Assembly (NCBI GenBank): GCA_027484125.1
Contig: JAIXUI010000012.1
Coordinates: forward strand, 1-35,860
Reading direction: 5' to 3'
DNA length: 35,860 nucleotides
DNA from: Bacteroidota bacterium
Lineage (GTDB): Bacteria; Bacteroidota; Bacteroidia; UBA7662; JAIXUI01
The position numbers were made by a program, and so were the translations under genes. This document shows positions 30,801 to 35,860 of this stretch, in pieces. Every line of letters starts with the position of its first letter. Position 1 is the stretch's first letter. The notes below the pieces were generated by a model, which saw only the letters and a program-made list of their open reading frames with translations, was not told the origin of the DNA and did not search any database.

Positions 30801-31796
30801 ATGGCCAAAACAAAGATAACCAAAGAAACCTACATCAACTGGTACGAAAGCATGCAGTTGATGCGCAAGTTTGAGGAGAAATCTGCTCAGCTCTATGGTC
30901 AGCAGAAGATCAAAGGATTTTGCCATTTGTATATCGGACAAGAAGCAATTGTTGCCGGAACTTACTCGGTTATCCGCAAAGATGACCGCGTAATTACCGC
31001 TTATCGCGACCATGCTCATGCCCTAGCAGCCGGAATTTCTGCCAATGAAGTAATGGCCGAGCTTTACGGCAAAGCAACTGGCTGTTCAGGTGGAAAAGGC
31101 GGCTCTATGCACATGTTCTCTAAAGAGCATAATTTCTTTGGCGGACATGGAATTGTAGGGGGCCAAATTCCATTGGGAGCCGGGCTTGCTTTTGCAGACC
31201 AGTATCGCGGTGGCGACCAAGTAACTGTGTGTTACATGGGTGATGGAGCTTTGCGCCAAGGTGCATTGCATGAAACCTTCAACATGGCCATGCTTTGGAA
31301 ACTCCCGGTAATTTTCGTTTGCGAAAATAACTTTTACGCCATGGGAACCTCTCTTGAGCGAACTTCCAATGTACTTGACATCTACAAATTAGGGTTGGCC
31401 TATGACATGCCTTCTAAAGCGGTCGATGGAATGACCTGCGAAGAAGTTCATAAAGCCATGGACGAAGCAGTAGAGCGTGCTAGAAAAGGCGAAGGCCCCA
31501 CCTTCCTTGAAATAAGAACCTACCGCTACAGAGGCCACTCCATGTCGGACCCAGCAAAGTACAGAACCAAAGAAGAATTAGAAGAATACCGCTCTCAAGA
31601 CCCTATTGAGAAGGTAAAAAACACTATTCTCTCCAAGAAATATCTCACAGAAGCTGAATTGGAAGCAATTGATAGCCGAATTAAAGCGGTGGTCAATGAA
31701 TCCGTTGATTTTGCAGAAAACTCTCCGTGGCCGGCAGAATCAGAGCTTTTCACCGACGTTTACGTACAAAGCGATTACCCCTTCATCACTGACTAA
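30801..31796 (+). CDS. pdhA: pyruvate dehydrogenase E1 component, alpha subunit
   Basis: A 331-residue thiamine-diphosphate enzyme subunit that decarboxylates pyruvate in the pyruvate dehydrogenase complex. The cofactor-binding motif runs from GDGALRQGALHE to CENN, and the later RYRGHSMSDPAKYR is the conserved loop phosphorylated in mitochondrial enzymes. Length fits the two-subunit (alpha-beta) E1 type, so a separate beta subunit is needed and is not in the window. It could in principle be a branched-chain or acetoin E1, but the motif context favours pyruvate. It is followed after eight bases by a TPR membrane protein. Confidence 0.93.
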   Translation: MAKTKITKETYINWYESMQLMRKFEEKSAQLYGQQKIKGFCHLYIGQEAIVAGTYSVIRKDDRVITAYRDHAHALAAGISANEVMAELYGKATGCSGGKGGSMHMFSKEHNFFGGHGIVGGQIPLGAGLAFADQYRGGDQVTVCYMGDGALRQGALHETFNMAMLWKLPVIFVCENNFYAMGTSLERTSNVLDIYKLGLAYDMPSKAVDGMTCEEVHKAMDEAVERARKGEGPTFLEIRTYRYRGHSMSDPAKYRTKEELEEYRSQDPIEKVKNTILSKKYLTEAELEAIDSRIKAVVNESVDFAENSPWPAESELFTDVYVQSDYPFITD

Positions 31797-31804
31797 GCAC
31801 ATTC

Positions 31805-32524
31805 ATGAGTCAAAAGGAAAAAGAAGCAGGTTCAACGAAACCTGTTCAACAAGACGAAACCTTCGCTGATACCCTTGATCATCAGCTTGAAGAAACCATT
31901 TCACGCTCTGAGGCCTTTATTGAAACCTATAAAAACAAGCTCCTTGCAGGTCTGGGAATTCTGTTGTTGGTTTTTGGCGCATATTACTATGTTTGGCATA
32001 TCTACCTGCCAGGCCAAGAGCAAGAGGCTCAGGAGCAAGCCTACATGGCGCAGCGCTGGTTCGAAAATGACTCTCTTGACCTAGCCATCAAAGGCAAAGG
32101 GCAGTATGCAGGTTTCGAAACTATTGCTGATGAGTATGGCATGACCAAAATTGGGAAACTTTCTCACTACTACCTCGGAATCGCTTACCTCCGCAAAGGC
32201 AAATTTCAAGAAGCTATTGATGAGCTTGACAAATTCAGCTCTGACGATATGATGCTTGCAGCTGTTGCTCTTGGAGCAAAAGGAGATGCCATGCTAGAAT
32301 TAGGTCAAAAAGAAGATGCGCTTGCTCAGTATGAAAAAGCAGCAAGCACCAACGAAAACCGCTTTACAACCCCAATCTATCTTCAAAAAGCAGCAGAACT
32401 TGCTGAAAACTTGGGACAAAAAGAAAAAGCATTGGAAATCTTTAATCGCCTCAAAGACGAATACAAAGAAACTAACGAAGGCATGAACGCTGAGAAATAC
32501 ATCGCTCGCATTCAAGCTAAGTAA
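31805..32524 (+). CDS. membrane-anchored tetratricopeptide repeat protein (YfgM-like)
   Basis: A 239-residue protein with a charged N-terminus, one membrane helix (about 41-58) and about four TPR-like helical repeats, such as YYLGIAYLRKGKFQEAIDEL and AKGDAMLELGQKEDALAQYE. The layout resembles YfgM, a periplasmic-facing partner of the SecYEG translocon and chaperones, but this is similarity of architecture only. It follows pdhA after eight bases. Its stop overlaps the ATG of the next gene by one base (TAATG), and a perfect terminator hairpin begins 20 bases after its stop. Confidence 0.88.
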   Translation: MSQKEKEAGSTKPVQQDETFADTLDHQLEETISRSEAFIETYKNKLLAGLGILLLVFGAYYYVWHIYLPGQEQEAQEQAYMAQRWFENDSLDLAIKGKGQYAGFETIADEYGMTKIGKLSHYYLGIAYLRKGKFQEAIDELDKFSSDDMMLAAVALGAKGDAMLELGQKEDALAQYEKAASTNENRFTTPIYLQKAAELAENLGQKEKALEIFNRLKDEYKETNEGMNAEKYIARIQAK

Positions 32525-33684
32525 TGGTTCCATTAACCTTCCTGAAAAACCCCGTTCATACCTTGACCGGGGTTTTTCTTTTTGTACTATCGGTGATTGG
32601 TGGGTTAAAAGCAGGGGCACAGACTGTTGAACCTTCGCCATTGGCCTTGTTTGAAACAGATCAAGGACCGGCATGGATGCATACCTCCAGGACCTTGAGA
32701 TTGCATGTCTCCATTGTGAGAAAATCTGATGGTTCCGGAAACTTTGACGACAGTACTGGAATTGCCTACGTGAAAGACCTGATTCGGATTGCCAACGATA
32801 TGCTAAGGAGCAATCAACACATGAATTTACCTGTAGGAAAACCAGCTAGGGTGTTGCCCATAAACCTTCAGTACGTATTAGTAGCTGACTCGGGAGCAGA
32901 CGAAGGCGTAAGCTTCATCCATGACGACAGCGTTTTTGTATTTGCACGGCGTACCAACTTTCAAACCGTTTTCGATGATCGCATCTACAAGAAGTATGGA
33001 AAGAAAAAAGAGTCTGTATTAAACGTTTTTCTTCTTGAAAACACCGATTCATCCGAGGAAGGTGGAGGTGTGGGCATGCCCCTATTTGTGAAGATGGGTG
33101 CTTGCTATTACCATTTTAGCAAGTATCAACGCGGCGCTTGGTTCATGGCCGGATTGCTCAATCATGAAATTGGACACACCTTAGGACTAGCCCATAGCTG
33201 GCAAGGCGATGGCTGCGATGATACACCCGACCATGCCAACTGCTGGAACATCGACTCCACCCAAGCTGCTTGTAGGGTGATTTCTAATAATGTGATGGAC
33301 TATAACGTCTATATGAATGCCTGGACACCCTGCCAAATCAGCATCATTCACCAAAACTTCTATGATCCATACTTTCCAGCGCGAAGATTTCTTAGGAAAG
33401 ATTGGACTTTAGTGCAACCAGGCATGGAAGTTCGCATTAAGGCTGGTGACACCATCACCCTCAATCGGCCGGTTGAGCTTAAAGGTAACCTCACTTTAGA
33501 ACGAGGAGCCGTGCTTCAGGTGAATCATCAACTGAGACTTCCCGCTGATGGACGACTCACCATAAACAAAAAAGCCATTGTAGTATTAGGTCCAAAAGGA
33601 GGACTTTTTTCTTCCACCAAAGAAGGATTAACGCCTCTTAAAGTGTTACGGAAATACTTAAAAAGGGTTAAAAAAAGCTCCTGA
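32524..33684 (+). CDS. secreted zinc metalloprotease, M43 (pappalysin)-like
   Basis: A 386-residue exported metzincin. A signal peptide occupies about 1-33. The zinc site is HEIGHTLGLAH (His214, Glu215, His218, His224), followed by SWQGDGCDDTPDH, a pattern typical of M43 peptidases, and a Met-turn at NNVMDYN (Met258). The last 100 residues are beta-rich with GNLTLERGAVLQV-type repeats, like a short beta-solenoid. There is no T9SS sorting domain. The ATG overlaps the preceding stop, but the codons for the signal peptide include a full intrinsic terminator. No other start preserves the signal peptide. Confidence 0.88.
   Translation: MVPLTFLKNPVHTLTGVFLFVLSVIGGLKAGAQTVEPSPLALFETDQGPAWMHTSRTLRLHVSIVRKSDGSGNFDDSTGIAYVKDLIRIANDMLRSNQHMNLPVGKPARVLPINLQYVLVADSGADEGVSFIHDDSVFVFARRTNFQTVFDDRIYKKYGKKKESVLNVFLLENTDSSEEGGGVGMPLFVKMGACYYHFSKYQRGAWFMAGLLNHEIGHTLGLAHSWQGDGCDDTPDHANCWNIDSTQAACRVISNNVMDYNVYMNAWTPCQISIIHQNFYDPYFPARRFLRKDWTLVQPGMEVRIKAGDTITLNRPVELKGNLTLERGAVLQVNHQLRLPADGRLTINKKAIVVLGPKGGLFSSTKEGLTPLKVLRKYLKRVKKSS
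32545..32583 (+). terminator. intrinsic terminator embedded in the metalloprotease signal-peptide codons
   Basis: A perfect 10-bp stem, AAAAACCCCG (32545-32554) with CGGGGTTTTT (32568-32577), extended after a one-base mismatch by TCA/TGA, loop of five. The T-tract reads TTTTTCTTTTT. It starts 20 bases after the TPR gene stop, the normal place for that gene's terminator, yet it lies inside the next reading frame. Translation through it from the coupled ATG could prevent hairpin formation. Confidence 0.85.
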
Positions 33685-33725
33685 TAGCGAATGAGTTAAG
33701 AAAATAAAATGGTCTCATTCAAATC

Positions 33726-33744
33726 AGCTGTATATTTGACAGCT
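33726..33744 (+). promoter_or_regulatory. putative -7 box within an inverted repeat, upstream of the transglycosylase gene
   Basis: TATATTTG at 33731-33738 matches TAnnTTTG exactly. It is flanked by AGCTGT (33726-33731) and its reverse complement ACAGCT (33739-33744), so a dimeric repressor could cover the box. If used, the leader would be about 90 bases. No -33 element was recognised. Confidence 0.4.
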
Positions 33745-33831: not shown

Positions 33832-35424
33832 ATGCTAAAAAGGACGCTTTTACTGCTTACCCTGGGTTGCTCCATCTTGATTGGCTCAGTTAGAGCACAA
33901 GACGTAACCTATCCGGAGATGAATGAGGAGAGTGAGGCCATTCTATCTACCCTAGATAGCCTTACCAATCTTCATTACTTCGATATCAAGAAGAGAAATC
34001 AGCAGATAAAACGTCTTAACAAGTATGGCTTTCGTCCGGATGACGTACCCACTTACGATGACTCTATCTATAACTATAGAATTGAGTTCCTAGAGCGGGA
34101 TATGCCCTTCACCTACAACGAATACGTAAAAGGATACATCAATCTATACGCGGTTCGCAAGCGCAATCTCACCGAGAAAATGCTCGGCCTTTCCCAGTAC
34201 TACTTCCCTATTTTCGAAGAAGCGCTTGAAAAAGCCGGCCTTCCTCATAGCTTAAAGTATCTTGCTGCGGTAGAATCGGCATTAAATCCCAATGCGGTTT
34301 CGCCGGCAGGAGCCACCGGAATCTGGCAGTTTATGTACGGCACCGCACGCATGTACAACCTAAAAGTAAACTACTACTACGATGAGCGCCGAGATCCTTA
34401 TGCAGCAACTCAAGCCGCTGTAGCGTTCTTCAAAGACCTCTACTCGATTTACAAAGACTGGATGCTAGTGCTTGCCGCTTACAACTGTGGACCAGGAAAT
34501 GTCAATAAAGCTATTCGTAAATCAGGTGGAAAGCGTGACTTCTGGTCAATTCGCCCTTACTTACCGGTAGAAACTAGGGGATATGTGCCAGCTTTTATCG
34601 CGGTTAGTTATGTAATGAACTTTGCGGCTGAGCACAACTTGTACCCTACTCCAATGATTACCCTGCCTACTGTAACCGATGTGGTTGCTGTTCAAGGTCC
34701 GGTTTATATCAAAGACATCACCCAGCACCTCGAAGTAGAAGAAGAAACCCTTACCATTCTCAACCCTGCGTTGAAATTGCGTTATGTGCCACAAAGCCAC
34801 GACTTCTATAACCTGAGATTACCTGCTAAACTGGTTTCAGTTTTCGAACGTAAACGAGATAACATCGTAACTTCTGTTCGTAAGCCTGAAATCTCCAATA
34901 TCGCCAGTTCAGAAAACAACAGCGCTCCTGTCTCAATTGCTAGCAACGAACCTAAAGAAAACACTACCGCCAATTCAGGTAAAGTTCCAGATGAGAAAGT
35001 TGCCAATGGCTTGTACAAAACCAAGCATACTGTTGAAAAAGGCGATAACCTCCGCAGAATAGCAGAAAAATACAATGTTACCATTGCAGAAGTTAGAGAC
35101 TGGAACAACCTCCCTAACAACATTATACGAGTTGGACAAGACTTGGAAGTTTATGTGAAACAGCTTCCAGAAACTCAGGTAGCTCAAAACAATGAGCCGG
35201 AATCTGAAGATCGTTCTATCTTTTCCAGACATCGTAAAAACAAAAGAGAAAAGAAAGAAAGTAAAAGAGAGAAGTACAAGTTCTACACTGTCAAAAATGG
35301 CGATACACTCTGGGACATCGCACAGCGTACCGGCCACGGCGTGGATGAGCTTAAAAAGCTTAATGGAATAAAGAAAAACTCCAACCTTAAAAAGGGACAA
35401 AAGCTTAAAGTGCCAAAAGCATAA
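33832..35424 (+). CDS. mltD: membrane-bound lytic transglycosylase D-like protein with two LysM domains
   Basis: A 530-residue peptidoglycan-cleaving enzyme. A signal peptide (about 1-22) is followed by a helical region and an SLT (GH23) domain (about 125-235), with catalytic Glu148 in AAVESALNP, GATGIWQFM and the AAYNCGPGNV motif. After a linker, two LysM domains follow: one at about 400-445 (VEKGDNLRRIAEKYNV) and one at the C-terminus (about 483-530, VKNGDTLWDIA), separated by a highly basic stretch rich in Lys and Arg. There is a Cys at position 13 of the signal region, but no convincing lipobox. Probable role: wall remodelling. The gene has a 147-base upstream gap with a candidate promoter. 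Confidence 0.94.
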   Translation: MLKRTLLLLTLGCSILIGSVRAQDVTYPEMNEESEAILSTLDSLTNLHYFDIKKRNQQIKRLNKYGFRPDDVPTYDDSIYNYRIEFLERDMPFTYNEYVKGYINLYAVRKRNLTEKMLGLSQYYFPIFEEALEKAGLPHSLKYLAAVESALNPNAVSPAGATGIWQFMYGTARMYNLKVNYYYDERRDPYAATQAAVAFFKDLYSIYKDWMLVLAAYNCGPGNVNKAIRKSGGKRDFWSIRPYLPVETRGYVPAFIAVSYVMNFAAEHNLYPTPMITLPTVTDVVAVQGPVYIKDITQHLEVEEETLTILNPALKLRYVPQSHDFYNLRLPAKLVSVFERKRDNIVTSVRKPEISNIASSENNSAPVSIASNEPKENTTANSGKVPDEKVANGLYKTKHTVEKGDNLRRIAEKYNVTIAEVRDWNNLPNNIIRVGQDLEVYVKQLPETQVAQNNEPESEDRSIFSRHRKNKREKKESKREKYKFYTVKNGDTLWDIAQRTGHGVDELKKLNGIKKNSNLKKGQKLKVPKA

Positions 35425-35439
35425 TTGAATTCCAGTTCA

Positions 35440-35860
35440 ATGACCAACATTTTAATTCTAGGATCGGGCGGGCGTGAGCACGCCCTTTCTATTTCTTTGG
35501 CGTCCAGCAAAAACTGCGGACGCCTTTTTATTGCTCCGGGAAATGCCGGAACGGCAGAAGTAGGCGTTAATGTCGCATTAAACCCGCTCGATTTCACATC
35601 TATAGCCGCTTTTGTTAAAGAAAAAGAGATTGGCCTTGTGGTATGTGGCCCCGAAGAACCTTTGGTTAATGGACTACGGGATTATCTAGAGTCAGACACT
35701 CAGTTAGCTCACTTGCCTATAATAGGACCTGGAAAAGCCGGTGCTCAGTTGGAAGGAAGTAAAGACTTCTCGAAACGTTTCATGCAGCGTCATCAGATTC
35801 CGACTGCTTCTTACCAAACTTTCAATCAGTCACAACTTGAAGAAGCATTGGCTTATGTGG
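35440..35860 (+). CDS. purD: phosphoribosylamine-glycine ligase, 5' part (cut by window edge)
   Basis: The first 140 codons of an open frame starting at the ATG at 35440. It begins MTNILILGSGGREHAL, the N-terminal motif of GAR synthetase, with APGNAGT and GPEEPLVNGL further on, all conserved in PurD. The enzyme makes glycinamide ribonucleotide from phosphoribosylamine, glycine and ATP in purine synthesis. The frame is open to the end of the window. It starts 15 bases after the transglycosylase stop. Confidence 0.95.
   Translation, partial: MTNILILGSGGREHALSISLASSKNCGRLFIAPGNAGTAEVGVNVALNPLDFTSIAAFVKEKEIGLVVCGPEEPLVNGLRDYLESDTQLAHLPIIGPGKAGAQLEGSKDFSKRFMQRHQIPTASYQTFNQSQLEEALAYV

Follow-up and report, generated by a model that had tools for sequence, protein, structure and literature searches.

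In Escherichia coli, terminators within the first 100 bp of open reading frames (ORFs) are efficient, and translation of a second ORF cost a terminator placed 30 bp into it only about 10% of its efficiency (PMC4824070). With a terminator 17-18 bp from a stop codon, efficiency was ~0.12 or 0.8 depending on sequence context (PMC4824070), indicating that partial repression by ribosomes is possible. A phylum-level list for runaway transcription does not include the Bacteroidota (PMC13323073).

We describe here a natural hairpin in a Bacteroidota-like genome, found in a window of 35,860 nucleotides (the whole stretch of DNA analysed), which follows the stop codon of a tetratricopeptide (TPR) gene and lies within the coding sequence of the next gene, a secreted metalloprotease. 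Several described systems resemble this arrangement in part. The partial terminator of secA-prfB in Bacillus subtilis (PMC8073009) likewise stands between co-directional genes, and incomplete read-through would lower expression of the second; the hairpin studied here is instead inside the coding sequence of the second gene, where it doubles as signal-peptide codons, and partial termination is predicted. The terminator tR2 in the second ORF of plasmid W48 (PMC4824070) is likewise ~30 bp past the start codon of the downstream ORF, although W48 is an engineered construct in E. coli, whose second ORF is served by a ribosome-binding site of its own and lacks the TAATG overlap. The leaders of pyrBI and of amino-acid operons (PMC4824070) also carry a terminator within translated sequence or immediately beyond it, where the position of ribosomes could matter; in contrast, our locus has no leader peptide, identified pausing codons or competing antiterminator, and the translated stretch is the N-terminus of the protease itself. 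Finally, RNA 3' ends inside ORFs of E. coli, taken as premature termination or processing (PMC7815308), similarly fall in coding sequence; those ends were mapped experimentally, whereas the hairpin here is known from sequence alone. A full-text literature search for terminators within signal-peptide codons found no paper.

Structure of the TPR/metalloprotease junction

The features of the region are as follows.

30801 to 31796, plus strand: pdhA-like E1 component of a 2-oxo acid dehydrogenase (Pfam E1_dh, 2.1e-95)
31805 to 32524, plus strand: TPR gene, tetratricopeptide protein with a hydrophobic segment (Pfam TPR)
32522 to 32526, plus strand: TAATG, TPR stop and metalloprotease start with a one-base overlap (from the sequence)
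32524 to 33684, plus strand: secreted M43-like zinc metalloprotease, 386 aa (Pfam Peptidase_M43, 25.5 bits, cut-off 23)
32544 to 32554, plus strand: 5' arm of the stem, GAAAAACCCCG, metalloprotease codons 7-11
32555 to 32567, plus strand: loop, 13 nt
32568 to 32578, plus strand: 3' arm of the stem, CGGGGTTTTTC
32573 to 32584, plus strand: U-tract, TTTTTCTTTTTG, the V-F-L-F codons of the signal-peptide core
33832 to 35424, plus strand: downstream SLT/LysM gene

The pdhA-like gene, likely the first gene of the transcription unit, is separated from the TPR gene by 8 nt. As an earlier note on this DNA had stated, the metalloprotease ATG (32524-32526) overlaps the TPR stop TAA (32522-32524), and the hairpin begins 20 nt past that stop (32544 against 32524, with 19 bases between), inside the signal-peptide codons (codons 7-20 of the metalloprotease). 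The perfect stem with a T-tract that it reported is present, with 11 bp rather than the 10 bp given. Six of the pairs in the hairpin (32544-32578) are G-C, the 13-nt loop has room for 3 more pairs, and the U-tract starts at the base of the G+C core of the stem. Its minimum free energy is -20.5 kcal/mol, against a mean of -7.8 in dinucleotide shuffles (z -5.7; 0 of 200 shuffles equally stable). The site thus combines a stable, G+C-rich stem-loop, an adjoining U-tract and the usual position after a stop codon, as in intrinsic terminators. No Rfam family matched in the window.

The metalloprotease frame is coding by hexamer score, and its product contains the M43 zinc motif pattern HExxHxxGxxH (HEIGHTLGLAH, residues 214-224) and a VMDY Met-turn (257-260), identifying a metzincin-type, M43-like protein. 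Residues ~1-33 are built like a signal peptide, comprising the core GVFLFVLSVIGG and an AGAQ cleavage region. The T-tract comprises the codons of GVFLF, and the U-tract encodes part of the core (V-F-L-F), bearing out the proposal that it specifies the hydrophobic centre of the signal.

We found no match to the strict Bacteroidota-type -7 box TAnnTTTG in 32000-33700, and no Bacteroidota-type promoter between the hairpin and the remaining metalloprotease gene or just 5' of the protease; an unrecognised promoter for the protease is possible. An internal sigma-70-like site at 32563-32590 was rejected, promoter-like sites being no commoner than in shuffles (19 found, 26 expected). A promoter-like TTG-spacer-TATGTTTG match occurs upstream of the hairpin, early in the TPR gene among its membrane-segment codons (31988-31995); matches of this type are scarce in coding sequence (0.03 per kb). 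Since the protease start lies 5' of the hairpin, any mRNA begun upstream and carrying that start must pass the hairpin, and since no Bacteroidota-type promoter was found beyond it, protease mRNA with an intact start must arise by read-through. The SLT/LysM gene, ~150 nt beyond the metalloprotease and with a TATATTTG box at 33731 in the gap, is probably its own unit. Two further terminator-like stems (35470-35485 and 35499-35524) were seen at the start of purD (window 35440-35530), the first encoded by its GSGGREHA codons.

Pairing of the arms with the protein sequence held fixed

We compared the hairpin with synonymous versions of the same amino-acid sequence drawn at genome codon usage. A T-tract alone appeared in 15% of these, and one accompanied by a stem of 6 bp or more in 9%, whereas stems of 11 bp or longer together with a T-tract arose in only 15 of 20,000; none of 3,000 matched the hairpin in folding stability. 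Thus, the T-tract is expected from the residues, and what stands out is that the arms pair. Codons 7-20 are themselves ordinary for the genome (log-likelihood -15.4, against -16.4 expected).

Distribution of similar hairpins in the genome

Genes were called in a 1.5-Mb sample of this genome by a simple hexamer method. The distance from stop codon to stem in 90 intergenic terminators was sharply peaked (median 20 nt, quartiles 17-26), so that the 20-nt spacing at our locus is the genome norm and the hairpin reads as the terminator of the pdhA-TPR unit. Few terminators (8/90) stood less than 10 nt from the stop, consistent with ribosomes closely trailing the polymerase. Overlapping junctions in the sampled part comprised 23 of TAATG and 92 of ATGA type.

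Hairpins were then counted, under one definition throughout, in the first 120 nt of genes. At tight junctions, where a same-strand upstream neighbour ends no more than 30 nt away, 9 of 454 genes had one. Synonymous shuffles at the codon usage of gene 5' ends gave an expectation of 0.6, and no more than 3 in any of 100 shuffles. Larger upstream gaps gave 1 of 317 genes, opposite-strand neighbours 0 of 245, and mid-gene control windows none. Gene starts in this count were called by us, and the true start of one of the nine (L129) is probably further 3'. The nuoK-nuoL pair (L078) belongs to an operon that the polymerase must read through, indicating that not every such hairpin need be a strong terminator. 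Seven of the nine fall in hydrophobic N-termini (0.4 expected); as this split was chosen after the hits had been seen, its p-value against other tight-junction genes (Fisher p 0.008) is only descriptive. In 400 kb of the relative G002, tight-junction genes with a hydrophobic N-terminus numbered 46, of which 2 had a hairpin (0.13 expected), a count too small to carry weight by itself. The placement of a hairpin within the next gene is therefore not isolated, and the excess across the class is more interesting than the single site.

Individual sites illustrate the arrangement, the closest parallels to the TPR-protease junction being L149, L107 and L180, whose gene names are our reading of the sequences. 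At L149:6042-6160 (plus strand; genome G000, contig C77), a C1-peptidase-like gene is joined by TAATG to a gene for a secreted protein, whose signal peptide (MNFIKCTLIPAVFLLPVFFGPVAAQ) contains a 10-bp stem and T run 25 nt past the stop; no homologue of this gene was found in the relatives searched. At L107 (minus strand, ~1126-1176; G000 contig C35), dnaJ is followed after 8 nt by a yhhQ/VUT-like transporter gene, in which an 11-bp terminator-like stem spans codons 6-17, 25 nt beyond the dnaJ stop; the residues of this hairpin align with homologues in relatives from residue 3 or 6. Similarly, at L180 (minus strand; G002 contig C13), a TolC-like gene precedes an HlyD/RND-adaptor-like gene with a 12-bp stem 20 nt after the TolC-like stop, in the first membrane segment of the adaptor. 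The sole hit of the main count outside tight junctions, L144 (minus strand; G000 contig C72), has a hairpin and T run in a signal peptide (MKNTLRIILIACLLTGFFSAIHAQ) behind an upstream gap of 124 nt.

Orthologues and history of the junction

TPR orthologues were identified in 57 of 60 relatives. In those read, ribH is often the next gene, sometimes with the same TAATG overlap, and no comparable hairpin follows the TPR gene. In the analysed genome ribH is found away from the TPR gene on another contig, at L069:783-1274 (G000 contig C97), a separate location that marks a rearrangement at the TPR junction. None of 20 relatives from the order has the same TPR-protease junction. Given the frequent, hairpin-free TPR-ribH order in relatives and the displaced ribH of this genome, the junction of TPR gene and protease is a novelty of this lineage. 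Another assembly of this species (L047, 99.7% identity) begins 3' of the hairpin.

Only G001 and G003 yielded protease orthologues, at 45% identity; that of G001 overlaps by ATGA an upstream gene read from its sequence as alpha-L-fucosidase-like. A comparison of orthologues, which the earlier note had proposed as a check on joint conservation, gave a divided answer: both have signal peptides with FLF from T-rich codons, and the stem is absent from both, in part the outcome that the note had named as refuting its reading. In the alignment the orthologous signal peptides are shorter, and the 5' arm of the stem is held in a six-residue insertion, LKNPVH, of the window protein, with gap placement within signal peptides uncertain. 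On the simplest reading of these three sequences, the T-rich core appears to be older, and the stem to have been gained later. An attenuator would be expected to be conserved with the gene that it regulates; given the two orthologues without a stem, the hairpin is not a conserved attenuator of this gene family. A lineage-specific function is possible, considering how far the orthologues have diverged.

Interpretation of the hairpin

We consider it rather probable that the hairpin is the intrinsic terminator of the pdhA-TPR unit, lineage-specific and partial, through which the protease mRNA is read. On this model, transcripts of pdhA and TPR would mostly end in the U-tract, and a minority reading through would give the protease mRNA, keeping the secreted protease well below pdhA and TPR. 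As similar sites exceed chance at tight junctions, the protease probably comes only from RNA that escapes the stop signal, and attenuation by the position of the hairpin is likely. Because its start overlaps the TPR stop, the protease is probably translated by re-initiating ribosomes, which would usually arrive too late to influence termination; to do so, such a ribosome would have to translate several protease codons while the polymerase is still at the U-tract, which we judge a minority event. By analogy with the E. coli constructs, a ribosome resting at the TPR stop, 20 nt away, could repress the hairpin. The T-rich codons of the hydrophobic core, apparently older in the three sequences, would have supplied a ready-made U-tract, and the pairing 5' arm would have come with the lineage-specific insertion.

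The earlier note had suggested a different role for translation, in which TPR ribosomes re-initiate at TAATG and enter the 5' arm, so that the polymerase passes and protease output follows TPR translation. The TAATG overlap, with the hairpin from codon 7, suits this proposal, as do the overlap of the G001 orthologue with a different upstream gene, the near confinement of overlapping hairpins to tight junctions, and the scarcity of terminators close behind stops, which is consistent with ribosomes closely behind the polymerase. We nonetheless regard it as unlikely: the E. coli terminator inside a translated second ORF was hardly impaired, the stem stays free when a ribosome rests at the TPR stop, the orthologues lack the stem, and the sole antiterminator candidate falls 3.4 kcal/mol short of the terminator fold in stability. 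That candidate, ACAAAAAGAAAAA in the TPR gene (window 32416-32428), is a perfect 13-nt complement of the U-tract (32573-32585); it was rejected because of this cost of forced pairing, and because 7.5% of synonymous shuffles also contain a complement of this kind.

It is still less probable that the inverted repeat is a coincidence of coding, which the polymerase passes normally, leaving TPR and protease as an ordinary translationally coupled pair. The amino-acid sequence does favour short hairpins with a T-tract, the codons concerned are not unusual, and purD in the window has a similar stem; against this, an 11-bp stem is rare among synonymous versions, the 20-nt spacing is canonical, and the genome-wide excess is confined to tight junctions, with none in mid-gene controls. 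A misassigned start, with the protease beginning 3' of the hairpin from its own promoter and the hairpin an ordinary terminator in a 3'-UTR, would fit the shorter signal peptides of the orthologues and the failure of homology search to align residues 1-44. We hold it to be very improbable, as the U-tract codons are required for the core and AGAQ cleavage region, a protein begun further 3' would have no signal peptide, and the TAnnTTTG box is without a match in the region.

Implications

Extending partial termination by the hairpin to the class as a whole, we tentatively propose, with considerable doubt, a recurrent architecture in which, at tight junctions, the terminator of the upstream gene draws its U-tract from T-rich codons for the signal peptide or first membrane helix of the next protein, and an in-frame attenuator sets, and may tune via re-initiating ribosomes, the dose of an exported or membrane protein relative to the preceding gene. 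If true, one stretch of DNA would carry three layers: a transcript would end there, the next protein would begin, and the export signal of that protein would be encoded. Terminator searches restricted to intergenic regions would miss such sites, and start calls may shift away from them. The excess at tight junctions before hydrophobic N-termini provides a countable prediction for 3'-end mapping across the phylum, and bears on how closely ribosomes trail RNA polymerase in these bacteria.
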